In this document: positions 1,710-25,727 of the stretch, one piece after another
Position numbering within the stretch: position 1 is the first letter of the stretch
Layout of the letters: every line of letters begins with the position of its first letter
Assembly (NCBI GenBank): GCA_918272565.1
Contig: CAKJYW010000014.1
Location: 1 to 42,393 of the forward strand
Source: Bacilli bacterium
Lineage (GTDB): Bacteria > Bacillota_I > Bacilli_A > ML615J-28 > CAG-698
Length of the DNA: 42,393 nucleotides
Reading direction: 5' to 3'
Program-made: the position numbers and the translations under genes
The notes under the pieces: generated by a model
What the model was told of the DNA's origin: nothing
What the model saw: only the letters and a program-made list of their open reading frames with translations
Database searches by the model: none

Positions 1710-1732
1710 TACGTAAGTATCAATTTTTTTTT
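1706..1732 (+). terminator. Terminator overlapping the tetR stop codon
   Basis: TTGATAC (1706-1712), loop GTAA, GTATCAA (1717-1723) followed by nine T. The TGA stop lies in the first stem arm. Confidence 0.9.
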
Positions 1733-1799
1733 ACCACTTATTCCTTTTTTTTACCGATTATGCAAAAATTATTAAAAAATAAAATTTTATAAATATAAT
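1731..1799 (+). promoter_or_regulatory. lytTR operon promoter with two direct repeats (candidate LytTR sites)
   Basis: TATAAT lies at 1794-1799, but the -35 position (1771-1776) is ATTAAA, a poor match. Immediately upstream are two similar sequences in the same orientation, TTACCACTTATTC (1731-1743) and TTACCGATTATGC (1751-1763), exactly 20 bp apart. LytTR regulators bind pairs of ~9-12 bp direct repeats about two helical turns apart. A weak -35 preceded by such repeats is what an activator-dependent, autoregulated promoter would look like; that reading is inference. Confidence 0.5.
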
Positions 1800-1819
1800 A
1801 TAAATGTGGAGGTTCTCAT

Positions 1820-2287
1820 ATGGAAAAGGGAATTAGATTAAAATTTATTCAAGATGATAATGTGAAAGATATTGAAATTATCATTCGTGCTAAGGAACAA
1901 AATGAAGAAGTTGAGAAAATTTTAAATTTGATTGGCAGTGAAACAAGCGAAAACATTTCTTGTCAAGTTTTGTCAACTGAAAAAATGATTGATAAAAAGG
2001 ATATAATTATTATTTCTAAAGAAGGTAGATTTTTGATTGTTAAAACTGTAAATGGTGAATATGTCCTTAATGAACCCATGTATAAAGTTGAAGAAAAACT
2101 TGATAAAGTTTGGTTTATTAAAATATCCCAATCAGAGATAGTTAATTTAAAATATGTAAAAAAATGGGAGCTAGTCTCTGGTGGAATAATAAAAATAGAA
2201 TTAATAAATGGCATTTTTTCATATACTTCTAGAAGATATGCTGTTTTGATTAGAGAAGTATTAAAAAAAGGAGGCGGCAAAAGATGA
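1820..2287 (+). CDS. LytTR-domain DNA-binding regulator
   Basis: 155 residues with no receiver domain. Residues ~58-152 match a LytTR DNA-binding domain: KDIIIISKEGRFLIVKTV, then FIKISQSEIVNLKYV (the family's F-x-[RK]-[IV]-x-[QR]S-x-[IL]-[VI]-N signature), the IKIELINGIFSYTSRRY strand pair and the terminal helix. The N-terminal ~55 residues are a short alpha/beta region of unknown role. The gene starts behind GGAGG (1808-1812) and overlaps the next ORF (stop 2287, start 2284). Stand-alone LytTR proteins next to DUF3021 membrane proteins are known as LytTR regulatory systems in Firmicutes, where the membrane protein holds the regulator inactive. Here the operon also carries a large lipoprotein, its likely output. 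Confidence 0.82.
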   Translation: MEKGIRLKFIQDDNVKDIEIIIRAKEQNEEVEKILNLIGSETSENISCQVLSTEKMIDKKDIIIISKEGRFLIVKTVNGEYVLNEPMYKVEEKLDKVWFIKISQSEIVNLKYVKKWELVSGGIIKIELINGIFSYTSRRYAVLIREVLKKGGGKR

Positions 2288-2751
2288 AGAAAAAGTTGAT
2301 AAAGCGACTAATAATCGGCTTTTTTATAGGGGCAATAATAGGAAATGTAATATCGATTCTTTCAGGACTCCCTGATGGAGAATTAACTTTCATTAGCGAA
2401 AAATTAGAGGATAGCATAGGTTTGACTTTTGGCATCATTTTAAATTCATTCCTTTCTGGACTAATTGGAGCAGCTGGTTTTGGTGGTTCAGTATTTTATG
2501 ATATTGAAAAATGGAGCATTATAAAAGCAACTTTGTCTCATTATGTTTGTTGTATAATATGTTTCACTCTTGCTTTCTTTATTTTATATTGGGGTGATTT
2601 TGTAACTTATTTAATAATGTTTATTATTGAAACAATTATATTTTTATTAATATGGATAATAATATATCAAATATGGAAAAAAAGTGTTAGAGAATTAAAT
2701 GAGAATTTAGAGAAGTATCAAAAGGAGCAAGAAAATGAAAAAAGCGAATAA
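2284..2751 (+). CDS. DUF3021-type four-helix membrane protein
   Basis: 155 residues, four hydrophobic segments (about 7-28, 45-70, 83-105, 108-132) and a charged 22-residue C-terminal tail. The mid-protein sequence GGSVFYDIEKWSIIKATLSHYVCC matches the DUF3021 pattern of an aromatic/WS-x-x-KAT-x-H segment between helices 2 and 3. The start ATG at 2284 follows GGAGGCGG and overlaps the lytTR stop. The stop at 2751 lies 17 nt inside the lipoprotein gene. In characterised LytTR regulatory systems such as S. mutans BrsRM and HdrRM, the partner membrane protein antagonises the LytTR regulator; by position this protein is the likely anti-regulator or membrane sensor. No enzymatic motif is seen. Confidence 0.75.
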   Translation: MKKKLIKRLIIGFFIGAIIGNVISILSGLPDGELTFISEKLEDSIGLTFGIILNSFLSGLIGAAGFGGSVFYDIEKWSIIKATLSHYVCCIICFTLAFFILYWGDFVTYLIMFIIETIIFLLIWIIIYQIWKKSVRELNENLEKYQKEQENEKSE

Positions 2752-5700
2752 TTTTATAAAAATCTTTCTGTTTTTATTTTTAATTGTTTTATCAATTAGC
2801 GTTTTTGTTGGATGTGGAGATAATAATTCTACTAATAATGAAACAGATGATCCGGTAGTTAATCCTACTGATAATCCACAAGATAATCCAGCAGATGATC
2901 CTACTAATAATCCTACTGATAATCCAGCAGATGATCCAGCAGATGATCCTACTAATAATCCTAATGATAATCCGGTAGATGATCCACAGGATAATCCAAC
3001 AGATAATCCACAGGATGATCCTAATACACAACCAGTAGTTACTGAATCATTTAAAAAATTACAAGAAGCAATATATAAATTAACTCTAATTAATATTCCA
3101 ACATTAACAGATGTTGAAGTATCAGAAGATGCTATTTTGAATGTTGAAGAAGGTAAAATAAAAGGTGGTTTGAATTTAGATAAAGACTTATTTAAATCTT
3201 TATATGATTATTTAAAAGAAGAAATCCATAAAGTTTCTAGTTTCAAAGAAGAAGATGAAAAATGCATTGAGGAAGCAAATAATGCAAATTGGAGTTTTGT
3301 CATTCAAGTAAACGGAAAGAAGAAGCTTATTTGTGTTGAAATATTATTCAATGAGGAAGAGAATAATTCTTTATATATAAATGTTCTAGCTAGTGATTAT
3401 TATAATATTTCTGTAAAAACTTTAGAGGGTGGAAATGTCTTAATTACTAGAAATGGCAAATTAGTCTCTAGTGGTTCATTAGAAGCAATAAATGATGAAA
3501 TTATAGAACTATTAGCTAATTCTAGCGAAGGATATAATTTTATTGGCTGGTATATAGGAGATGAGTTGTTATCAAGTAATGCTAAATATTCTTATTTAGT
3601 TAATAAAGCTGATGCTTTAATTGTTGCAAAATTTGAAGAAATTAAGCCTAATATTAATGATGATTTTATTAAGTTCAGAAGCAAATTAAATGATAATAGC
3701 GGTATTTTACTTCCTTTATTTGAAAATGTTAGTATTAAAAATGAAGTGGTAAATCTCGACAATGCTAATCAATTAGAAATTCAAGGTGATTTAGTATTTA
3801 TAGATAAAGAATTAATTACTCAATCATTTAATGATATTAAAGCAGCAATCAGTCAAAAATTAGGTAATCCTATTAATGATAATAACACAACTGCTCTATC
3901 TTTAGTTTGGGTTATTACTAATTATGATAGTGAGGCTCCTCATCAAGTTGAAGTGGAACTTTTTGCTAGTTTAGATAATTCATTGATTAATATTAAATGG
4001 ATAAAAAGCCCTATTGTTATTATTAATGTAGAATCAAAAGGTCCAGGAACAGCTTATGGAGTTTATTTTGATGGTGCTAATAATGAAGTAAAATACACTA
4101 AGTATTATGGATTTGTTAATAGTCTTTATGGAACATTATACATAGATAAAGAAGATGGAATAGTATTTGATGGGTGGTTTGTTAATAATCAATTAGTTTC
4201 AACAGATGAAAAATTTGTATTTAATTATAGTATTACAAATTTCACAGAAATCACATTTGTGGCTGAGTTTAGTGAAAAAGCTAATGAAGAAGTTCAGATG
4301 ACTGAATCTTACAAATCAGGTAGAGAAGCGATTTATTCACTAACAGGCATTTATATTCCTGAATTAGCTAATATCACACTACTTGCTTCATCTGATATCT
4401 CACCTAATAAAGGTGTTGTATGCTTTGATATCCCTGCAGATAAGGCACTTTATACTTCTTTATATAATCATTTGAAAGAAGAAGTTCACAAATTATCTAA
4501 TTTTAACAAAGATGATGAATCATTTGATGAAAAGGAAAAATATGCTAACTGGAATTATTTAGTTGCAAATGATAATCAAAAGAGATTAGTTTGGATTGGA
4601 ATTATCTTTGATGATGAAAATCAAACAAACACTAAAGTTTATATCAATGTAACTTCAAGTGATTATTACAAAATTACTGTAACTTCAACAACAGGTGGTA
4701 CTGCTACATTAAAGAAAGATGGAAATGTAATAAATGGAAATGTCATAGAGACATTCTATGATGAGAAATTAACTTTAGAAGCTACACCTAATAATGGATA
4801 TAATTTTATTGGTTGGTATAAAGGTAATGAATTATTAAGCAATAATAGTAGTTATGTTTATGAAGTAGAAAAGAGCGATGTCCAAATTGAAGCTAGATTT
4901 GAAGAAAATAAGACTAATATGACATCTAGTTATCAAAGTGGTAGAAATAGTTTCCATGATATTTCTAATATTTGGCTTCCTGAGCTTGAAGGTGTAGAAC
5001 TACTTAATACATCTTCATTTGATGTTGCTAAGAAAGATGCTCGTTTTAAGATCAGTAGCACTAGCGCTTCCTATACTGCAATTATTAATGCTTTAAAGAG
5101 TGAAATGACTCAATATCCTAGTGCGAATAATAATAATCATTTAGAACTTGATTTTTATATTTTCTGGGAATGGGATTATTTAGATCAAGGTAGAATGCAC
5201 AAAGTAACTATTTGGGCAGAAAATAACAACACCGAAATTGAAGTTGGTTATTTATTTAGAGATTTCTATACAATAACATTAAAAAAAACTGCTGGTGGGA
5301 ATGTCACTTTAAAAGTTTCTGGAAATGCTATGGAAAATAATACTGCTCATTTATGTTATAACACTAGTTGCGATTTATATAGTGAAGCATCAAGCGGATA
5401 CAAATTTGTTGGATGGTTTATTGGTGATACTTTATTAAGTGAAAATGCTATATATAATGGGTATATGTTAGTTAGCGATGTTGATATTACCGCAAAATTT
5501 GAAGAAATACCTTCTAATATGAGCGAAAGTTATAAATCATTTAGAAATTCTTTAAACGAATTATCTGGTGTTTTATTACCTGCTTTTGAAAACGTTAATG
5601 CTAACAATACCTATATTAACCCAGATAATACTAATCATGTTCGTGATGAAGCAGAAGCAGAATTAGTGTTACCATCAAATGAAGGATTAAATCAAGCATT

Positions 5701-6835
5701 TTTAGATATTAAAGCAGCATTTACAGCTGTTTTTGGGGATCCCGAAAGTGATCAAGCAAATCAATATATGATTTTCACTCAATGGTCTATTCCTCATTAT
5801 GATGCTTTAATACCTTATCGAGATGAAGTAATGATGAATGCTGAACCAAATGGTACTAGTATTAATGTTATGTGGCGTAAGCAACCTATCGTTATTATTA
5901 ATGTTGCATCAAGTGGTCCAGGAGAAGCAGTTGGTGTTTACATCGGGGAAAATTATGAAGAAGTTCCTTACACTAAATATTTTGAAATAGTAGATGCTTT
6001 TCATGGTACATTAAAAGCTACTCCAAATGATGGTAAAGTGTTCTTGGGCTGGTATTTTGGTGATGAATTATTATCACAGGATGCTAAATATATCTTCGAT
6101 TATAAAAATGTAGATTTCACTGAAATTACATTCGTTGGTAAATTTGGTGATGCTCCTAACCAACAAGCAAATACAACAGAAAGCTATAGTGATGCAAGTG
6201 GCAAATTTGAAGATGTTACTGGAAGCACTTTGCCTGAAATTGATAATTTAGAAGTTTCAGGTGCCTATGTCTCTGGTGAAAATCAAGGTATTTCAATAGA
6301 TATGACAGGTGGAACTAATTTGACTTATGGTTCATTCCAAACAATTTATTCAAGTTTTGTCCAATCATTTGGTGAAGCCACAAGCAACGAAGGTGATGAA
6401 AATGAGCATGCAGTTGTATGGAAAAATAGTAATTTTATTTTACAATTAAACTGGAATCCTTCTTTAAGCGCAAAAATTAGCATTTATGAAGTTAATCTTT
6501 TGGATTTTAGTGTAGCTAAAACAAATTTATATGGAGTTTTAGGTATTACTTTACCAGATTTAGATAATGTTAAGATGTATGGAGACAGTACATTTAATAA
6601 TGAAACTAAAGAGATGACTTGCGACCTTTGTGGAACAGGATGCACATATCAAGCATTTGAACAGCTCATCACTTTATTTGCTTCAACATTAGGCGCTTGG
6701 AGTAATGGATTCCCTCAAGGATCAGAAAATGATGGATATGCTGATATTCAATGGACAACACAAGAAGGTGTATGGGTTCAAATATTCTGGCAATCAGGCG
6801 AAATGTTTATTAATTCATACAAAATGAATAATTAA
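2735..6835 (+). CDS. Large surface lipoprotein with DNP-repeat stalk and InlB-type B-repeats
   Basis: 1366 residues. A lipoprotein signal peptide (hydrophobic 7-26, lipobox FVGC with Cys27) is followed by a low-complexity linker (~28-103) of tetrapeptide units ending in NP or DP, acidic and proline rich. Beyond it lie five pairs of an ~110-residue module and an ~80-residue beta repeat. The beta repeats end in GY-FIGWY-GDELLS-NA-Y then AKFEE, the hallmark of divergent InlB B-repeats (Flg_new type). Two more copies of the 110-residue module close the protein, without B-repeats. The module begins ESYKSxRxxLxxLSGIxLPELxNV and I do not recognise it. There is no LPXTG or enzyme motif. Start: AAAGGAG at 2721-2727. 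Likely a cell-surface adhesin, binding or sensing protein made under LytTR control; exact role unknown. Confidence 0.75.
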   Translation: MKKANNFIKIFLFLFLIVLSISVFVGCGDNNSTNNETDDPVVNPTDNPQDNPADDPTNNPTDNPADDPADDPTNNPNDNPVDDPQDNPTDNPQDDPNTQPVVTESFKKLQEAIYKLTLINIPTLTDVEVSEDAILNVEEGKIKGGLNLDKDLFKSLYDYLKEEIHKVSSFKEEDEKCIEEANNANWSFVIQVNGKKKLICVEILFNEEENNSLYINVLASDYYNISVKTLEGGNVLITRNGKLVSSGSLEAINDEIIELLANSSEGYNFIGWYIGDELLSSNAKYSYLVNKADALIVAKFEEIKPNINDDFIKFRSKLNDNSGILLPLFENVSIKNEVVNLDNANQLEIQGDLVFIDKELITQSFNDIKAAISQKLGNPINDNNTTALSLVWVITNYDSEAPHQVEVELFASLDNSLINIKWIKSPIVIINVESKGPGTAYGVYFDGANNEVKYTKYYGFVNSLYGTLYIDKEDGIVFDGWFVNNQLVSTDEKFVFNYSITNFTEITFVAEFSEKANEEVQMTESYKSGREAIYSLTGIYIPELANITLLASSDISPNKGVVCFDIPADKALYTSLYNHLKEEVHKLSNFNKDDESFDEKEKYANWNYLVANDNQKRLVWIGIIFDDENQTNTKVYINVTSSDYYKITVTSTTGGTATLKKDGNVINGNVIETFYDEKLTLEATPNNGYNFIGWYKGNELLSNNSSYVYEVEKSDVQIEARFEENKTNMTSSYQSGRNSFHDISNIWLPELEGVELLNTSSFDVAKKDARFKISSTSASYTAIINALKSEMTQYPSANNNNHLELDFYIFWEWDYLDQGRMHKVTIWAENNNTEIEVGYLFRDFYTITLKKTAGGNVTLKVSGNAMENNTAHLCYNTSCDLYSEASSGYKFVGWFIGDTLLSENAIYNGYMLVSDVDITAKFEEIPSNMSESYKSFRNSLNELSGVLLPAFENVNANNTYINPDNTNHVRDEAEAELVLPSNEGLNQAFLDIKAAFTAVFGDPESDQANQYMIFTQWSIPHYDALIPYRDEVMMNAEPNGTSINVMWRKQPIVIINVASSGPGEAVGVYIGENYEEVPYTKYFEIVDAFHGTLKATPNDGKVFLGWYFGDELLSQDAKYIFDYKNVDFTEITFVGKFGDAPNQQANTTESYSDASGKFEDVTGSTLPEIDNLEVSGAYVSGENQGISIDMTGGTNLTYGSFQTIYSSFVQSFGEATSNEGDENEHAVVWKNSNFILQLNWNPSLSAKISIYEVNLLDFSVAKTNLYGVLGITLPDLDNVKMYGDSTFNNETKEMTCDLCGTGCTYQAFEQLITLFASTLGAWSNGFPQGSENDGYADIQWTTQEGVWVQIFWQSGEMFINSYKMNN
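2818..3040 (+). repeat. 12-bp tandem repeat tract coding for (D/N)(D/N)P tetrapeptides
   Basis: Within the lipoprotein gene, units such as GATAATCCAACA, GATGATCCAGCA and AATAATCCTACT repeat in steps of 12 bp, coding for a proline/asparagine/aspartate stalk of roughly 18 units. A multiple-of-three period means copy-number change would alter stalk length without breaking the frame. Confidence 0.85.
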
Positions 6836-6855
6836 TTATTATAAAAGACAAAAAA

Positions 6856-6884
6856 AAGAAGTGGCAATTTATTTGCCACTTCTT
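6856..6884. terminator. Bidirectional terminator between the lipoprotein gene and aroQ
   Basis: AAGAAGTGGCAA (6856-6867), loop TTTAT, TTGCCACTTCTT (6873-6884). Read on the minus strand it is followed by seven T after the aroQ stop. Read on the plus strand the T-run is poorer, but it is the only stem after the lipoprotein gene. Confidence 0.85.
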
Positions 6885-7153
6885 TGATATTCTTTTGATA
6901 AATCTAACATGCATTCTAATAATCTTTGGTAATACTCTTTGATTTTCTCATTTTGTATGTTTTTAGAGTTGGTTTCTAATAGGTAGGCTTCTCTATCTTT
7001 ATCAAATAATTCTACTTGAAGTTCCTTTTTTATTTCCCCTATTTTTTTAGCTAGATTCATTCTCTTTTCAAATAAAAGAGATATTTCTTTATCAACGATT
7101 TCAATTTCTTTACGTAGTTTAATTATTTCTTTTTCTAACTCAGTTTTATTCAT
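6869..7153 (-). CDS. aroQ: Chorismate mutase, AroQ (type II) class
   Basis: 94 residues, the usual size for a monofunctional AroQ mutase. It converts chorismate to prephenate in phenylalanine/tyrosine synthesis. Helix 1 carries LRKEIEIVDKEISLLFEKRM, giving the substrate-binding Arg, the D-I-LL pattern and the second Arg. Lys of AKKIGEIKK and the FDKDREAYLL turn follow, and a late Gln lies in KEYQ. The start is the ATG at 7153, preceded by GGTGA with a 5-nt spacer; the GTG at 7162 sits inside that element and is the less likely start. It is transcribed divergently from the aroB operon, whose last aro products supply its substrate, and ends in the shared hairpin that contains its stop codon. 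No prephenate dehydratase or dehydrogenase is in the window. Confidence 0.85.
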   Translation of the reverse strand: MNKTELEKEIIKLRKEIEIVDKEISLLFEKRMNLAKKIGEIKKELQVELFDKDREAYLLETNSKNIQNEKIKEYYQRLLECMLDLSKEYQRSGK

Positions 7154-7171
7154 TTTCTTCACCCGATTACT

Positions 7172-7222
7172 ATTTTAGCACATTTTAGTTTTCTTGCAAA
7201 TATTAGGAAAATATATTATAAT
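7172..7222. promoter_or_regulatory. Divergent aroQ / aroB promoters sharing one palindromic -35 (TTGCAA)
   Basis: TTGCAA at 7194-7199 is its own reverse complement. To the right, 17 nt lead to TATAAT (7217-7222), the aroB promoter. To the left, on the minus strand, 16 nt lead to TAAAAT (7172-7177), which is preceded by TGC and so forms an extended -10, the aroQ promoter. The -10 boxes face away from each other and the single hexamer fits both. Confidence 0.65.
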
Positions 7223-7246
7223 AAATTGTTAAGAGAAGGTTTTTTT

Positions 7247-8230
7247 ATGGAAATAATATCTAAAGTTTTAGATAAAGAATATAAGATAGTAATAGGACGC
7301 AATATCTTAAAAGATATCAATAAATACTATGTATTACCTAATAAGGTGATGATTATTTATGATGAAGGTGTAAGTGTTGATTATCTTGACTCACTAACAT
7401 CAAACATCTTAGGTGAGGTTTACGTCTTTGCATCTTTAGCTGAAAAAAGTAAGAATATAGAGACTTATAGCGCTATAATAAGGCAACTTATTAAAAGTGA
7501 ATTTAGTAGAAGTGATTTAATAATTGCTCTAGGAGGGGGCGCAACATGCGATCTAGCTGGGTTTGTAGCTAGTAGCTATAAAAGAGGAATTAACCTAATC
7601 TTTTCCCCAACAACCACCCTTTCCATGGTCGATGCTTCAATCGGTGGAAAGAACGCTATCGATTTTAGTGGAATTAAAAATAGTGTTGGTTCATTTTATT
7701 TACCTAAATTAGTCTTAATTGATTTAGATACTTTATCTAGCCTAGATAAGAAGATCTATAACGAAGGACTAGTTGAAGCTTTTAAGATGGGTTTAATAAA
7801 AGATAAGAGTCTATTTGATTTATTCTTTGGTGTTATTAATAAAAATATAGAAGAAATTATAATTAAATCAATAAATGCTAAAAATAGTTTTGTTGAAAGA
7901 GATTTTTACGATAAAGGCGTAAGAAAATATCTTAATTTTGGGCATACTTTAGCTCATGCTCTAGAAGCTTATTCTAATTATGAAGTAAGCCATGCCAGTG
8001 CTGTTGCTTTTGGGATTATTAAATTACTTAAGGGCGACCTAAAAGAAAAGACAAAAGAAATATTTGATAAATTAGAAGTCAGATATGAATTTGATGTTGA
8101 TTTATGCGAATTAATTAAATTCATTAAACAAGATAAGAAAATAGAAGATGATTATCTAGATCTTGTTTTAGTAGAGGAAATAGAAAAACCATTTATTAAA
8201 AGAGTAAAAATAGAAGAAATAAAGTTTTAA
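7247..8230 (+). CDS. aroB: 3-dehydroquinate synthase
   Basis: 327 residues. Converts DAHP to 3-dehydroquinate, step 2 of the shikimate pathway, with NAD+ and a divalent metal. The NAD-binding loop LGGGATCDLAGFVASSYKRG and the substrate loop PTTTLSMVDASIGGKNAIDF are intact. The metal ligands are visible as Glu in EGLVEAFK, His in NFGHTLAHALE and His in VSHASAVAFG. It is somewhat shorter than the usual ~350-360 residues, mostly by short loops and C-terminus. I choose ATG 7247 (preceded by AGAGAAGG, 7231-7238) over the upstream TTG at 7226, which lies only 4 nt beyond the -10. It is the first gene of the plus-strand shikimate operon; aroC follows after 10 nt. Confidence 0.93.
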   Translation: MEIISKVLDKEYKIVIGRNILKDINKYYVLPNKVMIIYDEGVSVDYLDSLTSNILGEVYVFASLAEKSKNIETYSAIIRQLIKSEFSRSDLIIALGGGATCDLAGFVASSYKRGINLIFSPTTTLSMVDASIGGKNAIDFSGIKNSVGSFYLPKLVLIDLDTLSSLDKKIYNEGLVEAFKMGLIKDKSLFDLFFGVINKNIEEIIIKSINAKNSFVERDFYDKGVRKYLNFGHTLAHALEAYSNYEVSHASAVAFGIIKLLKGDLKEKTKEIFDKLEVRYEFDVDLCELIKFIKQDKKIEDDYLDLVLVEEIEKPFIKRVKIEEIKF

Positions 8231-8240
8231 GGAGATTATT

Positions 8241-9263
8241 ATGTCTTCAACATATTCTAAAAACATAAAAATATCAATCTTTGGAGCTTCTCATGATTCC
8301 TTAATGGGAGTTATTCTAGATTTGGTAGCCCCTGGAATAAAGATTGACCTAGATTACATAAATAATGAACTAGAAAGAAGAAAAGGTGGAGATCTTTCAT
8401 CAAAAAGAAAAGAAGCTGACAAGGTGAAAGTTGTTAGTGGTATCTTTAATGGACTAACAACTGGCGCTCCTTTAACTTTCATTTTAGAAAATGAAGATGT
8501 CGATAGTAGTAAATACGATAATATGAAAGCTACGCCTCGTCCATCTCACGCAGATTATGCTAGTTACATTAAATCTTTAGGATATAATGATTATCGAGGT
8601 GGAGGCACTACTAGCGGTAGATTAACAGCGCTAATTGTAGCAGTTGGGGCTTTCTTTAAGAAGATATTAAGTGAAAAAGGGATAAAGATTGAATCAAGTT
8701 TTACTCAAATTGGTAATAGAACTGGTGAATTTTTAGACCCAGATGAAATAAATGACTATATTTATGATATAGCTTCTTCAAATGATTCAGTAGGTGGCGA
8801 AATTAAGGTTATAGCGAGTGGTGTAGAAGCGGGAATTGGTGAACCTTTCTTTGATTCAATGGAATCAACAATCAGCCAGCTAATGTTTTCTATTCCTGGA
8901 GTTAAAGGTGTTTCCTTTGGATTAGGCGAAGCTTTTAAAGAAAAAAGAGGAAGCGAAGTTGCTGATGAATTTGAATACATCGATAAAAGAATAGTTACTA
9001 AAACAAATTATAATGGTGGCATAAATGGTGGAATTACTAATGGCATGGATATAATAGCTAATGTCATAGTGAAAGCTACTCCATCAATTAAGCGTACATT
9101 TGATACAGTTAACTTAGAAACTAAAACTAATGATAAAGTTGAAATCGATGGAAGATTTGATCCTTGCATTTTACTTAAGATGCCTCCGATTGTTGAAGCG
9201 GTCATGGCAATAAGCATTATGGATCAAATGGTTGGAAGATACGGATATTTATGGATGAAATAG
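8241..9263 (+). CDS. aroC: Chorismate synthase
   Basis: 340 residues, the short form seen in Clostridia-like bacteria. It makes chorismate from EPSP using reduced FMN. Conserved blocks include RPSHADYA (active-site His), DYRGGGTTSGRLTA and, near the end, the EIDGRFDPCILLKMPPIVEA signature. The first signature is unusual: the normal G-E-S-H-G reads G15-A-S-H18-D, keeping the catalytic His but not the Glu or second Gly. An AAGGAG lies just before the start. Its stop overlaps the aroE-aroK start by 13 nt, so translation is coupled. The core enzyme looks complete; activity despite the altered motif is inferred. Confidence 0.9.
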   Translation: MSSTYSKNIKISIFGASHDSLMGVILDLVAPGIKIDLDYINNELERRKGGDLSSKRKEADKVKVVSGIFNGLTTGAPLTFILENEDVDSSKYDNMKATPRPSHADYASYIKSLGYNDYRGGGTTSGRLTALIVAVGAFFKKILSEKGIKIESSFTQIGNRTGEFLDPDEINDYIYDIASSNDSVGGEIKVIASGVEAGIGEPFFDSMESTISQLMFSIPGVKGVSFGLGEAFKEKRGSEVADEFEYIDKRIVTKTNYNGGINGGITNGMDIIANVIVKATPSIKRTFDTVNLETKTNDKVEIDGRFDPCILLKMPPIVEAVMAISIMDQMVGRYGYLWMK

Positions 9264-10453
9264 AATATGGACTTTTGGGTAAAAAAATAGGTTATTCCTA
9301 TTCTAAACTTATCTATGAATTTTCAGGATATAATTACGAACTTGTTGAAGTTAGTGAAGAGGATTTAGAATCATTTATTAAGGGAAAGAAATACAAAGGA
9401 CTAAATGTCACTATTCCTTATAAAGAAAAAGTTATCGAGTTTTTAGATGAATTATCTTTTGTAGCTAAAAAATGTGGAGTTGTAAATACCATAATTAATG
9501 ATAATGGCAAGCTTATCGGTGATAATACTGACTATTATGGCTTTTTGTATTTATTAAAAGAATATGGGCAAATAGATGAATTAAGAAATAAATCATTTCT
9601 AATTTTAGGATCAGGTGCCACATCTAAAACAATTAGAATGGTTTTTAATGATAATGGAATTAATGATGTTAAAGTTGCTTCTAGTAAAGATGGTTTTGAT
9701 TATCATTATAGTGAATTAAGTGATTTACATTTTGATTTTGTAATTAATGCTACACCAGTTGGAACTTATCCTAATATAAGTGAAAAGATTGATGCAAGAG
9801 GCGATAACATCATTGATGTTATTTATAACCCGTATAAAACTAGGTTAGAACTTGATAATAAGTTTAACGCATCTGGTCTAGATATGCTTATCGTTCAAGC
9901 GATTGAATCGATGAATAGGTTTAATTTAGTACCTAAAAGTTTTTCTGATATTAAAGATTATTTAAATAGAAATACTAGAAATATCGTCCTTGTTGGGCTT
10001 CCAGGTAGTGGTAAAACAACTATTGGTGAAGTGTTAAGCAGGAAACTAAAAAAAGATTTCTTTGATACAGATAAGGAAATCGAAAAAGAAGAACAGATAG
10101 AAAGAATAATTAAAGAAAAAGGCGAAGAATATTTTAGGGAAAAAGAGACTGATGTTATAAAAGAAGTTTCTTTAAAGCATGGGGCTATTATTTCTACAGG
10201 TGGTGGCGTAGTTTTAAAAGATGAGAACATGAAAATGCTCATGGCTAATGGAATAGTCTTCTATATTGATAGAGAAATTGATGAAATTTATGCGACTTTC
10301 ACCCCTCATCCCCTAACAAAATCAAAAGAAGATTTAATAACACTTTATAATATTCGAAATCCATTGTATAATAAGTATAGTGATTACGTTATTAAAGAAA
10401 AAGAATTAGAAAAAACAGTTGATAAGATTATAGAATTAGTTGATTTTAAGTAG
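9251..10453 (+). CDS. aroE-aroK: Fused shikimate dehydrogenase / shikimate kinase
   Basis: 400 residues, two enzymes in one chain. Residues 1-~235 are an AroE: YSYSKLIY substrate loop, NVTIPYK with the catalytic Lys, GDNTDYYGF with the catalytic Asp, an LGSGATSKT dinucleotide loop and a QAIESMNRF end; this is a compact form of the usual ~270. Residues ~242-400 are an AroK: Walker A GLPGSGKTT (249-257), FDTDKEIE metal/substrate aspartates, EEYFREKE, the STGGGVV glycine loop and IRNPLYNKYSD. The lid motif normally RPLL reads H353-P-L-T, so its Arg is missing. The domain order places two consecutive steps (dehydroshikimate to shikimate to shikimate 3-phosphate) together. The start overlaps aroC. 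Confidence 0.92.
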   Translation: MDEIEYGLLGKKIGYSYSKLIYEFSGYNYELVEVSEEDLESFIKGKKYKGLNVTIPYKEKVIEFLDELSFVAKKCGVVNTIINDNGKLIGDNTDYYGFLYLLKEYGQIDELRNKSFLILGSGATSKTIRMVFNDNGINDVKVASSKDGFDYHYSELSDLHFDFVINATPVGTYPNISEKIDARGDNIIDVIYNPYKTRLELDNKFNASGLDMLIVQAIESMNRFNLVPKSFSDIKDYLNRNTRNIVLVGLPGSGKTTIGEVLSRKLKKDFFDTDKEIEKEEQIERIIKEKGEEYFREKETDVIKEVSLKHGAIISTGGGVVLKDENMKMLMANGIVFYIDREIDEIYATFTPHPLTKSKEDLITLYNIRNPLYNKYSDYVIKEKELEKTVDKIIELVDFK

Positions 10454-10478
10454 TCTTATTATAGATTTGGTGACTATT

Positions 10479-11492
10479 ATGATTGTTACGTTGAATAAGA
10501 ACATTTCAAAAAAAGAAATCGATGAACTGATAAAAGGCTTTAAAGATAAACAAATAGAAGCGGAGTTTATTGATTTCAATAACAATAAATTATTATTGTT
10601 ATTTGGTGAAACAGAAATGATCGATGAGAATGCTTTATCGAATAATGAATTTATTGATAAAGCAGTGAGAGTATCTACCCCTTATAAACTGGTTAGTAGG
10701 AACTTTAAAGAAGAAGATACGATAGTTAAAGTTGGTGATGTACTAATTGGTGGTAAGGATGTTGTGATGATTGCGGGGCCATGCTCAGTAGAAAGCAAAG
10801 AGCAAATCGATGAGATATGCGGTCTAGTTAAAGAGAGTGGCGCTAACATCTTAAGAGGTGGAACTTATAAACCAAGAAAGAGTCCTTATTATTTTCAAGG
10901 ATTAGGTCAAGATGGTGTTAAATATTTAGTAGAAGCTAAAAAGAAGCATGCTATCCCAATTGTGAGTGAAATTCCATCAATCGAAAAGATCGATGAATTT
11001 AAGGATGTTGACATCATTCAAGTTGGTGCTAGAAACATGCAAAACTATGAGCTTTTAAAAGCGTTAAGTAAAATCGATAAACCTATTTTACTTAAACGCG
11101 GAATGAGTAATACGATAGAAGAACTTCTAATGAGTGCTGAATATTTACTTAAAGGCGGTAATCCTAATGTCATCTTATGTGAAAGAGGAATTAGGACATT
11201 CGAAAAAGCTACACGTAATACTCTAGATTTATCGATTGTGCCGCTACTTAAGAAATTAACACACCTACCGGTTTTGGTCGATCCATCACATGCAACAGGA
11301 AACTGGGAGTTAGTTGAACCTATGAGTTTAGCAGCAATTGCTTCTGGTGCTGATGGTTTATTAATCGAGGTTCATAATAATCCAACTATCGCCTTAAGCG
11401 ATGGTGGACAATCAATAAAAGTAGATAGATTTAAGAATATTGTTGAAAAAGGAAGAAAAATTGCAAATATAATAGGAAGGGATATCAAATAA
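10479..11492 (+). CDS. aroF: DAHP synthase, class I-beta with N-terminal ACT-like (FBD) domain
   Basis: 337 residues. Condenses phosphoenolpyruvate and erythrose 4-phosphate to DAHP, the entry step. The N-terminal ~70 residues (MIVTLNKNISKKEIDELI...) match the ferredoxin-like regulatory domain of Thermotoga-type enzymes that gives feedback inhibition by aromatic amino acids. The barrel follows with MIAGPCSVES, LRGGTYKPRKSPY, QVGARNMQNYELL, LLKRGMSNT, LCERGIRTFE and VDPSHATG. Start: GGTGA at 10469-10473 with 5 nt to ATG 10479; the TTG at 10440 would overlap the upstream gene and has no ribosome site. The stop shares bases with the next start (TAATG). A regulatory domain here suggests control of flux at enzyme level, since no attenuator is seen. 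Confidence 0.93.
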   Translation: MIVTLNKNISKKEIDELIKGFKDKQIEAEFIDFNNNKLLLLFGETEMIDENALSNNEFIDKAVRVSTPYKLVSRNFKEEDTIVKVGDVLIGGKDVVMIAGPCSVESKEQIDEICGLVKESGANILRGGTYKPRKSPYYFQGLGQDGVKYLVEAKKKHAIPIVSEIPSIEKIDEFKDVDIIQVGARNMQNYELLKALSKIDKPILLKRGMSNTIEELLMSAEYLLKGGNPNVILCERGIRTFEKATRNTLDLSIVPLLKKLTHLPVLVDPSHATGNWELVEPMSLAAIASGADGLLIEVHNNPTIALSDGGQSIKVDRFKNIVEKGRKIANIIGRDIK

Positions 11493-12769
11493 TGAGAGTA
11501 GAAATTACACCTAGTAAAATTAACGGAACTATTACAGCTCCTTCATCAAAGAGTCTTACACATCGCGCAATTATTTGTGCATCACTTGCAAATGGAAAAA
11601 GCGTAATCACAAATGCTAATATCTGTGATGACACTATTGCCACAATCTATGCAATGCGTGCCCTTGGAGCAAGAATTGACATCATTGGCTCTAAACTTGT
11701 TGTTAAGGGAATGGATTTAGAAAAGAAAGAAGGAGATGTTAGACTTGTAGTAGATTCAAGCGCATCTACTTTAAGGTTTGTTTTGCCTCTTGCAACTCAC
11801 CTTTATGATCAAGCAATCATTAAAGTTAATAGAGATTTAATGAAACGCCCATTTAAAGTTTATGAAGATCTTTATTCTCAAAAAGGCTTTGAGTTAAGAA
11901 AGGTAAAGAGTCCTAAGATTAATCGTATGTTTGCAAGCGGAGATGTTGACCAAAAGGTTTATACAATTGACGCTAGTGAATCTAGTCAATATGTAAGTGG
12001 ACTATTATTCCTTGCTCCACTATTAAGTCATACTACTAAGATTGAACTTGTTGGGGATATTGTTAGTAAATCATACATCGATTTAACTTTAGCTGTACTT
12101 GCTAAGTACGGAATTAAAGTTAAGATGGAAGATAACATCCTAACTATTAAAGGTAACCAAAAATATAAAGCAAAGAACTATGCTGTTGAAGGTGACTGGT
12201 CACTTGCTGCAAACTACCTAGCACTTGGTGCTGTATGTGGTAAAGTTACAGTTAATGGTCTAAATGTTGAAAGTGCTCAATGCGATGCTGAATTCTTGAA
12301 TGTTTTAAAGAGAATGTGCGCAAATGTTACTGTTGAAGGTAAGAGAGTAACTGCATTAAAGAGTGACCTTATGGCTACTGACATTGATTTAACTGACAAT
12401 GTTGACTTAGCTATGCCATTTAGCTTCGTTAATGCTTTTGCATTAGGTGGAAGTAGAATAAGCAATGCTCATCGCTTAGAAGCTAAAGAATCAGATAGAA
12501 AGAAAGAAATTGTTGAAACATTGAAGAAGTTTAACTTAGTTGCATCTTTTGATAAAGATAATATCTATATCGCACCAGGTGAAGCTAAGATTGAACAAAA
12601 AGAAGTATTAAAATCAAAAGATCATCGTATTTTAATGCTAATGATGCTTTTAACTGCTGCTAGTCAAACTAAGGTTATTATTGATGATGCTAGTGGATTA
12701 AATAAGTCTTATCCAAGATTCTTGGATGATATGAAGAAATTAGGAGTTAAATATAAAGTATTAGCATAA
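11492..12769 (+). CDS. aroA: EPSP synthase (3-phosphoshikimate 1-carboxyvinyltransferase)
   Basis: 425 residues, full length. Transfers enolpyruvate from PEP to shikimate 3-phosphate. The PSSKSLTHRAI block carries the substrate Lys. DSSASTLRFVLPLA is the phosphate-binding loop, and SSQYVSGLLFLAP, the DNVDLAMP aspartate region and RLEAKESDR are all present. The SSASTLRF loop differs from the E. coli GNAGT(A/T)MR type and resembles class II, Gram-positive enzymes; this is a family observation, and inhibitor sensitivity is not predicted. It begins in TAATG with aroF and ends in TAATG with the GH9-type gene, so all three are translationally linked. Confidence 0.94.
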   Translation: MRVEITPSKINGTITAPSSKSLTHRAIICASLANGKSVITNANICDDTIATIYAMRALGARIDIIGSKLVVKGMDLEKKEGDVRLVVDSSASTLRFVLPLATHLYDQAIIKVNRDLMKRPFKVYEDLYSQKGFELRKVKSPKINRMFASGDVDQKVYTIDASESSQYVSGLLFLAPLLSHTTKIELVGDIVSKSYIDLTLAVLAKYGIKVKMEDNILTIKGNQKYKAKNYAVEGDWSLAANYLALGAVCGKVTVNGLNVESAQCDAEFLNVLKRMCANVTVEGKRVTALKSDLMATDIDLTDNVDLAMPFSFVNAFALGGSRISNAHRLEAKESDRKKEIVETLKKFNLVASFDKDNIYIAPGEAKIEQKEVLKSKDHRILMLMMLLTAASQTKVIIDDASGLNKSYPRFLDDMKKLGVKYKVLA

Positions 12770-24337: not shown

Positions 24338-24365
24338 AAAGTGGTAGAAAGTGGTAAAAAGTGGT
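24338..24365 (+). promoter_or_regulatory. Three MraZ boxes (AAAGTGGT, 10-bp period)
   Basis: AAAGTGGT occurs at 24338-24345, 24348-24355 and 24358-24365, exactly one helical turn apart. This is the known operator pattern of MraZ in Mollicutes and related to the TGGG repeats of E. coli. The boxes cover the transcription start and the third overlaps the GGTGA ribosome site, so bound MraZ could block its own operon. Confidence 0.88.
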
Positions 24366-24372
24366 GACTCTT

Positions 24373-24792
24373 ATGTTTATTGGACAATATAAGAACAATT
24401 TAGATGAAAAAGGAAGGTTGGTAATACCTTCTATCTTTAGAAAAGCTTTAGGAAGCACGATGATTGTCAATAAAGGAATCGAAGAATGCATCACTATCTA
24501 CACAACTGATGATTGGAATAAATTAGTTGATAAGATTTCTGAACTACCTTTTACCAGAAGTGACAACAGACAGTTTACTAGGTATTTCATGTCAAGTGCT
24601 TTTGAAAAAGAGATTGATGGTCAAGGAAGAATCAATCTAGATAGTGTCTTACTAGAACATGCTAAGATTACAAAGGAATGTGTAATTGTTGGATGTGGCA
24701 AGACTATTGAGATTTGGTCAAAAGAGAAGTGGGATGAAATAGAAGCTGGTCGTAGTAAGCTAGATGAAATTAGTGAAAGTTTAATGCTATAA
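24373..24792 (+). CDS. mraZ: Transcriptional regulator MraZ
   Basis: 139 residues. Two AbrB-like SpoVT half-repeats: FIGQYKNNLDEKGRLVIPSIFR (first copy; key D-x-K-G-R-x-x-[IV]-P) at about 2-23 and SSAFEKEIDGQGRINLDSVLLEHA (second copy; D-x-Q-G-R-x-x-[IL]) at about 75-98. MraZ forms a ring that binds three or four repeats in front of the dcw cluster. Start: GGTGA at 24363-24367, 5 nt to ATG 24373; a GTG at 24361 is part of the third box and less likely. It shares TAATG with rsmH. Confidence 0.94.
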   Translation: MFIGQYKNNLDEKGRLVIPSIFRKALGSTMIVNKGIEECITIYTTDDWNKLVDKISELPFTRSDNRQFTRYFMSSAFEKEIDGQGRINLDSVLLEHAKITKECVIVGCGKTIEIWSKEKWDEIEAGRSKLDEISESLML

Positions 24793-25727
24793 TGGAAAAT
24801 CTTAACCATATACCCGTTCTACTAAATGAAGTTATAGCAGGACTTAACATTAAAGAAGATGGCTTATACGTAGATTGCACTATGGGTGGAGCCGGACACT
24901 CTAGTGAGATCTTAAAAAGACTATCTAATAAAGGTCACTTATATTGCTTTGATCAAGATTCTTATGCTGTTAAAAGAGGCGAAGAGAGACTAAAAGCAAT
25001 TAATAATAATTATGACATCTTTCAAACAAACTTCGTAAATATAAAAAAAGAACTAGAAGACAAAAACGTTTCTAGTGTCGATGGAATTTTGTATGATTTA
25101 GGGGTTTCCTCATTTCAGTTCGATGATGGAAGCCGTGGTTTTAGTTACAATTTTGATGCTAGACTTGATATGAGAATGAATCAGGATCAAAGTCTAACAG
25201 CTTATGATGTTGTTAATACTTATCCATATGATAGACTTAAAAAGATCTTTTATGAATATGGAGAAGAGAAATTTAGTAATAACATCGCTAAATTAATTGT
25301 TTCTGAAAGAAATAAAAAGCCGATTGAAACAACTTTTGAGCTTGTTGAAGTGATAAAAAGAGCGATACCTGCTTATGCTAGACGTCAAGGTGGCCATCCA
25401 GCAAAGAAGGTTTTTCAAGCTCTAAGAATTGAAGTTAATGATGAACTTCGTGTTTTTGAAGACTCACTTCAAGATGCACTAATGATGCTAAATCCTGGTG
25501 GAAGGATAGTTGTAATAAGCTTCCATTCACTTGAAGATAGAATTTGTAAAAAGACATTTAAAGAAAAGACAGAAATTAAAACTTTAAGAGGATTACCTAT
25601 TAAAGAAAGTGAAATAACAAAAGAATTTCAACTTGTTAATAAGAAAGTAATACAAGCTACAGACTCTGAGCTTGATACAAACAATAGAGCACATAGTGCA
25701 AAATTGAGAATTATCGAAAAACTTTAA
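24792..25727 (+). CDS. rsmH: 16S rRNA (cytosine-1402-N4)-methyltransferase
   Basis: 311 residues, full length. Methylates N4 of C1402 in the decoding centre. The N-terminal HIPVLLNEVIAGL, the SAM site DCTMGGAGHSSEIL, DGILYDLGVSSFQFDD, and the RRQGGHPAKKVFQALRIEVN and ISFHSLEDR blocks are intact, with the family end NNRAHSAKLRIIEK. It is translationally coupled to mraZ. In most Firmicutes ftsL and penicillin-binding protein genes come next; here only a 15-codon ORF follows. Confidence 0.95.
   Translation: MENLNHIPVLLNEVIAGLNIKEDGLYVDCTMGGAGHSSEILKRLSNKGHLYCFDQDSYAVKRGEERLKAINNNYDIFQTNFVNIKKELEDKNVSSVDGILYDLGVSSFQFDDGSRGFSYNFDARLDMRMNQDQSLTAYDVVNTYPYDRLKKIFYEYGEEKFSNNIAKLIVSERNKKPIETTFELVEVIKRAIPAYARRQGGHPAKKVFQALRIEVNDELRVFEDSLQDALMMLNPGGRIVVISFHSLEDRICKKTFKEKTEIKTLRGLPIKESEITKEFQLVNKKVIQATDSELDTNNRAHSAKLRIIEKL

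Follow-up and report, generated by a model that had tools for sequence, protein, structure and literature searches.

A LytTR regulatory system operon conserved with a giant surface lipoprotein as its probable output

Introduction

LytTR regulatory systems (LRS), exemplified by HdrRM and BrsRM of Streptococcus mutans, consist of a soluble LytTR regulator encoded upstream of a small membrane protein. More than 4600 LRS operons have been proposed, and DUF3021 is one of the two DUF families found in the S. mutans LRS membrane proteins, the other being DUF2154 (PMC6193735). These systems are widespread yet poorly understood, and the outputs that have been characterised all come from S. mutans. Here we describe a three-gene operon in which a LytTR regulator and a DUF3021 membrane protein are followed by a 1366-residue lipoprotein. 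The operon lies in a 42,393-nucleotide stretch of a Bacilli bacterium (CAKJYW010000014.1, hereafter the window), which is contig C14 of a 1.69-Mb genome that is 97.4% complete. We consider it probable that the operon is a self-contained LRS cassette with the giant surface lipoprotein as its dedicated output.

The described LRS layout has 9-bp direct repeats separated by a spacer of 11-13 bp, with a strong bias to a position 10 bp before the -35 element (PMC6193735). In S. mutans, HdrR and BrsR also regulate bacteriocin and competence genes that lie away from their own operons (PMC6193735). In the main text of that paper, the conserved partners of LRS are ABC transporters and the outputs are bacteriocins and competence, and neither a lipoprotein nor a surface protein is named. 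The window operon differs from the S. mutans LRS in having a third gene, the giant lipoprotein gene, which is conserved across classes. In the open-licence literature we found no paper that connects LytTR to InlB repeats or to the combination of adhesins and a membrane inhibitor, nor any describing a conserved pairing of an LRS with a giant lipoprotein in which the operator is kept at the head of the operon. A literature match for LytTR with BspA was rejected, as it concerns a different, two-component regulator. Within the literature searched, the regulator is thus of a known kind and its conserved pairing with a giant lipoprotein is what is new. A subtype with one apparent target would offer a minimal system of one promoter, one operator and one output, and the cassette also reveals a confidently folded, undescribed domain, of which a single protein may hold as many as seven copies.

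Two other groups resemble the window system in part. It shares a lipobox and InlB-type repeats with the surface lipoproteins that carry BspA-type leucine-rich repeats (LRRs) or InlB B-repeats, and sister cassettes carry BspA LRRs (PF13306); the window lipoprotein, in contrast, has no LRR and is built from seven copies of one undescribed module. Extracytoplasmic function sigma factor/anti-sigma pairs with surface outputs likewise have an activator held by a membrane inhibitor in an auto-regulated operon. Unlike these pairs, the window system uses a DNA-binding LytTR protein, which has an operator of its own, in place of a sigma factor.

The window operon has the layout of an LRS

The operon and its predicted control region comprise the following features.

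1733 to 1741, + strand: left half, ACCACTTAT, of a LytTR-type direct repeat, the same sequence as in the left half of the S. mutans brsRM repeat (PMC6193735, Table 2)
1753 to 1761, + strand: right half, ACCGATTAT, of the same repeat after an 11-bp spacer, from a leave-one-out position weight matrix (PWM) and genome scan
1772 to 1799, + strand: predicted operon promoter, -35 TTAAAA, 16 bp, -10 TATAAT, 10/12 matches
1820 to 2287, + strand: LytTR regulator gene, 155 aa, PF04397 E=1e-15
2284 to 2751, + strand: DUF3021 membrane protein gene, 155 aa, PF11457 E=6e-21
2735 to 6835, + strand: giant lipoprotein gene, 1366 aa, lipobox VFVGC (Cys27)

An earlier sequence-only reading of this DNA had described three overlapping open reading frames (ORFs) without a gap, and this is borne out: the LytTR and DUF3021 genes share 4 nt, the DUF3021 and lipoprotein genes share 17 nt, and an AAGGAG ribosome site for the 1366-aa ORF is placed within the DUF3021 gene. 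From 1731 to 6835 the terminator scan reported nothing terminator-like on the + strand. The start given in that reading, 1731, also takes in the operator, which was not named there. PF04397 is the sole family over the cut-off in the LytTR protein, which has no receiver domain, no kinase and no transmembrane segment, and no second LytTR gene was found in the genome. The DUF3021 protein has about four transmembrane segments and a charged C-terminal tail; by analogy with described LRS, we infer that it is the LytTR inhibitor.

The direct repeat at 1733-1761 is a predicted LytTR operator. At brsRM the BrsR repeat reads ACCACTTAT-12-ACCGCTTAT, almost the same as ACCACTTAT-11-ACCGATTAT in the window, and the left half of the window repeat is shared not only with brsRM but also with Treponema bryantii (PMC6193735). 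The -35 element of the operon promoter begins exactly 10 bp after the repeat, and TTAAAA-16-TATAAT ranks among the best promoter-like matches of the stretch. The assignment to LRS proposed in the sequence-only reading gains support from this layout, which is that described in PMC6193735. Indeed, every feature of an LRS that can be tested in sequence (regulator, membrane partner, gene order, operator and promoter spacing) is found here.

When each locus in turn was left out of the PWM as it was scored, the window repeat was recovered by a matrix trained on the other loci only, with 1 of 1000 dinucleotide shuffles equally good. The sites of L047, L048, L050 (two sites), L053, L029 and L030, related loci described below, beat all shuffles (0/1000). 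A search of the 1.69-Mb genome with the pattern ACCRMWTA-12-ACCRMWTA gave a single perfect match, the window operator. Five further matches carry a single mismatch and all five lie inside ORFs, so that no intergenic site at one mismatch was found elsewhere in the genome. A degenerate genome-wide pattern with three mismatches returned only noise, as judged by a reversed control.

A large lipoprotein gene adjoins the LytTR subtype in relatives

A scan of 84,980 species genomes for the LytTR subtype gave seven loci, two of which, L049 and L052, are near-identical and are taken as one below, and about 900 genomes were profile-searched. Nine distinct loci comprise the scan loci, the window, an orphan locus (G026:C20) and a locus in genome G889. 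In all nine, a lipoprotein gene adjoins the LytTR/DUF3021-subtype locus on the same strand and encodes at least 750 aa where complete. The eight loci other than the window span Acholeplasmatales-like Bacilli to Clostridia. Among control LytTR loci (L028, L031-L037 and L107), 0/9 have an adjoining lipoprotein of at least 700 aa, two of these being on short contigs. The difference, 9/9 versus 0/9, gives a Fisher P of 4e-5, to be read with the loci being related and the rows not independent.

Two of the relatives carry an orthologous lipoprotein. In L047, from a goat-rumen Acholeplasmatales genome, the LytTR protein is 74% identical to that of the window, and a 1241-aa lipoprotein with seven module copies overlaps DUF3021 by 17 nt, like the window. 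In L053, from a Christensenella metagenome-assembled genome (MAG), a 974-aa lipoprotein with six module copies directly follows DUF3021. A 414-aa core of the lipoprotein, which takes in two modules along with two InlB-type repeats, shares 56% (L047) and 47% (L053) identity with the window protein. The sequence-only reading had proposed looking for this linkage in related genomes and named its absence as refuting; the linkage is present, with the orthologous lipoprotein following the pair in these two distant MAGs. Five other loci (L048, L050, L030, L029 and L052) carry BspA-LRR (PF13306) lipoproteins of about 750-1170 aa, some with InlB or Big_2 domains, encoded downstream, upstream or on both sides.

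The predicted operator stays at the head of the operon across these arrangements, before LytTR or, where the lipoprotein gene comes first, before that gene. In L048 and L029, where the lipoprotein comes first and the upstream region is covered, the operator precedes the lipoprotein and is absent before LytTR. Independent expression of the lipoprotein from its own promoter had been named in the sequence-only reading as an argument against a linked circuit, and L050 cuts both ways: its lipoprotein seems to have its own promoter, yet a second copy of the same operator lies directly before it. The G889 locus was found last and had both predicted features. Its operator matches 16/16 consensus positions and stands 10 bp before TTGATT-17-TATAAT; its lipoprotein, cut by the contig end, resembles those of L030 and L050 at its start. 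Together, operator uniqueness and conserved linkage make it likely that the lipoprotein is the dedicated output of the operon, and surface display appears to be what this sensor class controls here.

We further note that the LytTR gene of G889 (L138, 5018-5467, reverse strand) has a TAA at codon 2, through decay or assembly error, while its operator, DUF3021 and lipoprotein start are intact; relatives have intact copies. The orphan locus (L030, G026:C20, about 7535-8230, minus strand) has an orphan DUF3021 gene and a strong LytTR operator, followed by two large BspA-type lipoproteins. A tblastn search found no LytTR gene or remnant beside this DUF3021, and the LytTR encoded at G026:C1 may act on the locus in trans.

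The lipoprotein is built from a repeated, undescribed module

The 1366-aa protein has a single N-terminal hydrophobic segment (residues 3-31) containing the lipobox-like VFVGC27, in agreement with its earlier description as a surface lipoprotein; the lipobox counterparts in relatives are LASC, FVAC and LVAC. A D/N/P-rich linker at about residues 28-100 leads into seven copies of one domain of 110-130 aa, each with E<1e-23, so that the 110-residue module seen in the sequence-only reading is real. An InlB-type B-repeat region follows five of the seven copies (whole protein PF18998 E=3e-28, PF09479 E=1e-7). Pfam gave no match to LRR (LRR_5) repeats in the window lipoprotein, which is therefore not a BspA-LRR protein. 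The copies are placed as follows.

3038 to 3421, + strand: module copy 1, residues 102-229
3653 to 4039, + strand: module copy 2, residues 307-435
4298 to 4660, + strand: module copy 3, residues 522-642
4919 to 5275, + strand: module copy 4, residues 729-847, where the core shared with L047 and L053 begins
5519 to 5914, + strand: module copy 5, residues 929-1060
6173 to 6499, + strand: module copy 6, residues 1147-1255; modelled, predicted local distance difference test (pLDDT) 92.5
6500 to 6826, + strand: module copy 7, residues 1256-1364

AlphaFold2, run on 22 module copies, predicts a helix, two strands, a helix and four strands (pLDDT 92.5); the model of the 414-aa core is only fair (pLDDT 78.7, predicted template modelling score 0.50). 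No curated family was matched by more than one of the 22 copies (best E 0.0097, Pfam), and the PDB gave no sequence match below 0.1 and no fold match below 1e-3. The module thus appears to be an undescribed domain with a confidently predicted fold. Its weak PDB fold matches are to DUF4309 YjgB and LppA, with DcrB, SciW, Mog1p and MTC28 matched by a longer model; they hint at a Mog1/PsbP/DcrB-like lipoprotein fold and prove nothing. The best fold match in a viral library is a phage lipoprotein (template modelling score 0.63, E=8e-4). Judging from its domain types, the membrane-tethered lipoprotein would probably bind to other cells or to material of the host or of plant fibre.

Lipoprotein type appears to follow regulator lineage

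The module and the LytTR subtype are both sparsely distributed. Within the order to which the Christensenella MAG belongs, the subtype occurs in 2/347 genomes and the module in 2/297, and one cassette contains both. In the order of the window, 3/43 genomes have the module: the window genome, G021 and G022, the latter two each with one C-terminal copy in a lipoprotein unlinked to LytTR. Another lipoprotein, in G271 (L106, 3336-5756), combines the module with BspA-type LRRs away from LytTR and so bridges both types of cassette lipoprotein.

The window, L047 and L053 group together in the DUF3021 tree (89/93) and in the LytTR+DUF3021 concatenation (87/90); the LytTR-only tree leaves the placement of L053 unsettled. 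This grouping gives moderate support for lipoprotein type following regulator lineage. A mobile origin was considered and rejected: searches of plasmids, phages and IMG/VR contigs gave no match to the lipoprotein core, and IMG/VR gave none to the LytTR subtype. The module alignment was itself too diverged to scan viral contigs with. Lactobacilli carry LytTR-DUF3021 pairs on plasmids, but these are distant relatives (about 42% identity across half of the protein), and neither of the two examined has an annotated large surface protein next to it.

Proposed mechanism and alternatives

At rest, the membrane DUF3021 protein would keep the LytTR activator inactive, and transcription of the operon would be low. 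A membrane signal would free LytTR, which would bind the repeat at 1733-1761 and recruit polymerase to the promoter that begins 10 bp further on. Expression of all three genes would then go up: LytTR, the DUF3021 brake and the 1366-aa lipoprotein. We infer DUF3021 inhibition, signal release and feedback from the characterised LRS of S. mutans.

Several points weigh against the lipoprotein being the dedicated output of such a cassette. The inhibitor role of DUF3021 is extrapolated from homologues in S. mutans. The kind of lipoprotein differs between loci, with BspA-LRR proteins in most of the others, and the pair comes after the lipoprotein gene in L029 and L052. The -35 element TTAAAA is weak, as expected of an activated promoter and equally of chance, and the PWM consensus came from the same set of loci, despite the leave-one-out by locus. 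No feature points to a ligand for the lipoprotein.

The alternative that survives best, though we regard it as unlikely, is a three-component sensor in which the lipoprotein is less an output than the extracellular sensing arm: binding of a ligand or surface would be passed to DUF3021, LytTR would be released and the loop would make more sensor. The outside loops of DUF3021 are short for ligand binding, the orphan G026:C20 locus keeps the order operator-DUF3021-lipoprotein-lipoprotein with no LytTR beside it, and other LRS-like pairs of the order adjoin small secreted or lipoprotein genes (L031, L044, L046). The three module-lipoprotein loci also group in the DUF3021 tree (89/93) apart from the BspA loci, as co-evolving partners would; however, the grouping has moderate support, and simple co-inheritance would predict it just as well. 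Moreover, the characterised S. mutans LRS function without a lipoprotein partner, and lipoprotein type varies freely among loci. A further-reaching form, to which we likewise give a low probability, is a three-component LRS in which the lipoprotein senses the outside while the loop multiplies both sensor and surface coat, giving an all-or-none surface-display switch whose cassette extends across Bacilli and Clostridia.

It is improbable that the pair controls distant bacteriocin or competence genes and the lipoprotein is merely co-transcribed. Regulons reaching beyond the operon are known for HdrR and BrsR (PMC6193735), but the genome has no other perfect operator and no intergenic one-mismatch site, and the operators of relatives head operons containing the lipoprotein or the pair itself. 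Least probable, and already disfavoured, is a chance neighbourhood in which the lipoprotein, as one large surface protein among several that the genome encodes, sits accidentally behind an ordinary LRS pair and is independently expressed: large InlB/BspA-type surface proteins do occur elsewhere in these genomes and the module is unlinked in G021, G022 and G271, but the orthologous lipoprotein in two distant MAGs, the 9/9 versus 0/9 contrast, the 17-nt overlap and the second operator in L050 all argue against it.

Operon boundaries and neighbouring loci

Two hairpins flank the operon.

1705 to 1732, + strand: hairpin ATTGATAC-GTAA-GTATCAAT and T run, read directly from the sequence
6855 to 6885, strand undecided: terminator-like hairpin of 13 pairs, 20 nt past the lipoprotein stop

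The first, too GC-poor for the terminator scan, likely closes an upstream TetR-type gene and would insulate the operon; the T run of the second is stronger on the minus strand.

Beside the cassette, 6869-12769 holds a near-complete shikimate/aromatic set: a minus-strand chorismate mutase gene, then DHQ synthase, a chorismate-synthase-like gene, a shikimate dehydrogenase-shikimate kinase fusion (9251-10453, PF08501+PF01202), a DAHP-synthase-like gene and EPSP synthase. Further along the window, three tandem AAAGTGG-type repeats with a 10-bp period (24338-24365) directly precede an MraZ-like gene and resemble the MraZ boxes known from mollicutes. Downstream of the mraZ-like and rsmH-like genes (24361-25727) comes a transporter lipoprotein gene, and mur and pbp genes are missing there, as in wall-less relatives.

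Other LytTR loci of the order show different arrangements. In another family (L044, 1899-2474; L046, 1907-2473), an overlapping gene lies after LytTR and a weak DUF3021-type gene and encodes a secreted product of about 190 aa, which carries a hydrophobic segment at its C terminus and matches nothing in Pfam; this is possibly another three-gene LRS. At L031 (G016:C117, 7299-8389), a 212-aa lipoprotein gene lies directly upstream of a LytTR-DUF3021-like pair. Finally, L032, L033 and L035 have a different LytTR type that adjoins elongation factor P and is followed by a membrane protein some 550-570 aa long (truncated in L032); several genera of the family keep this arrangement.

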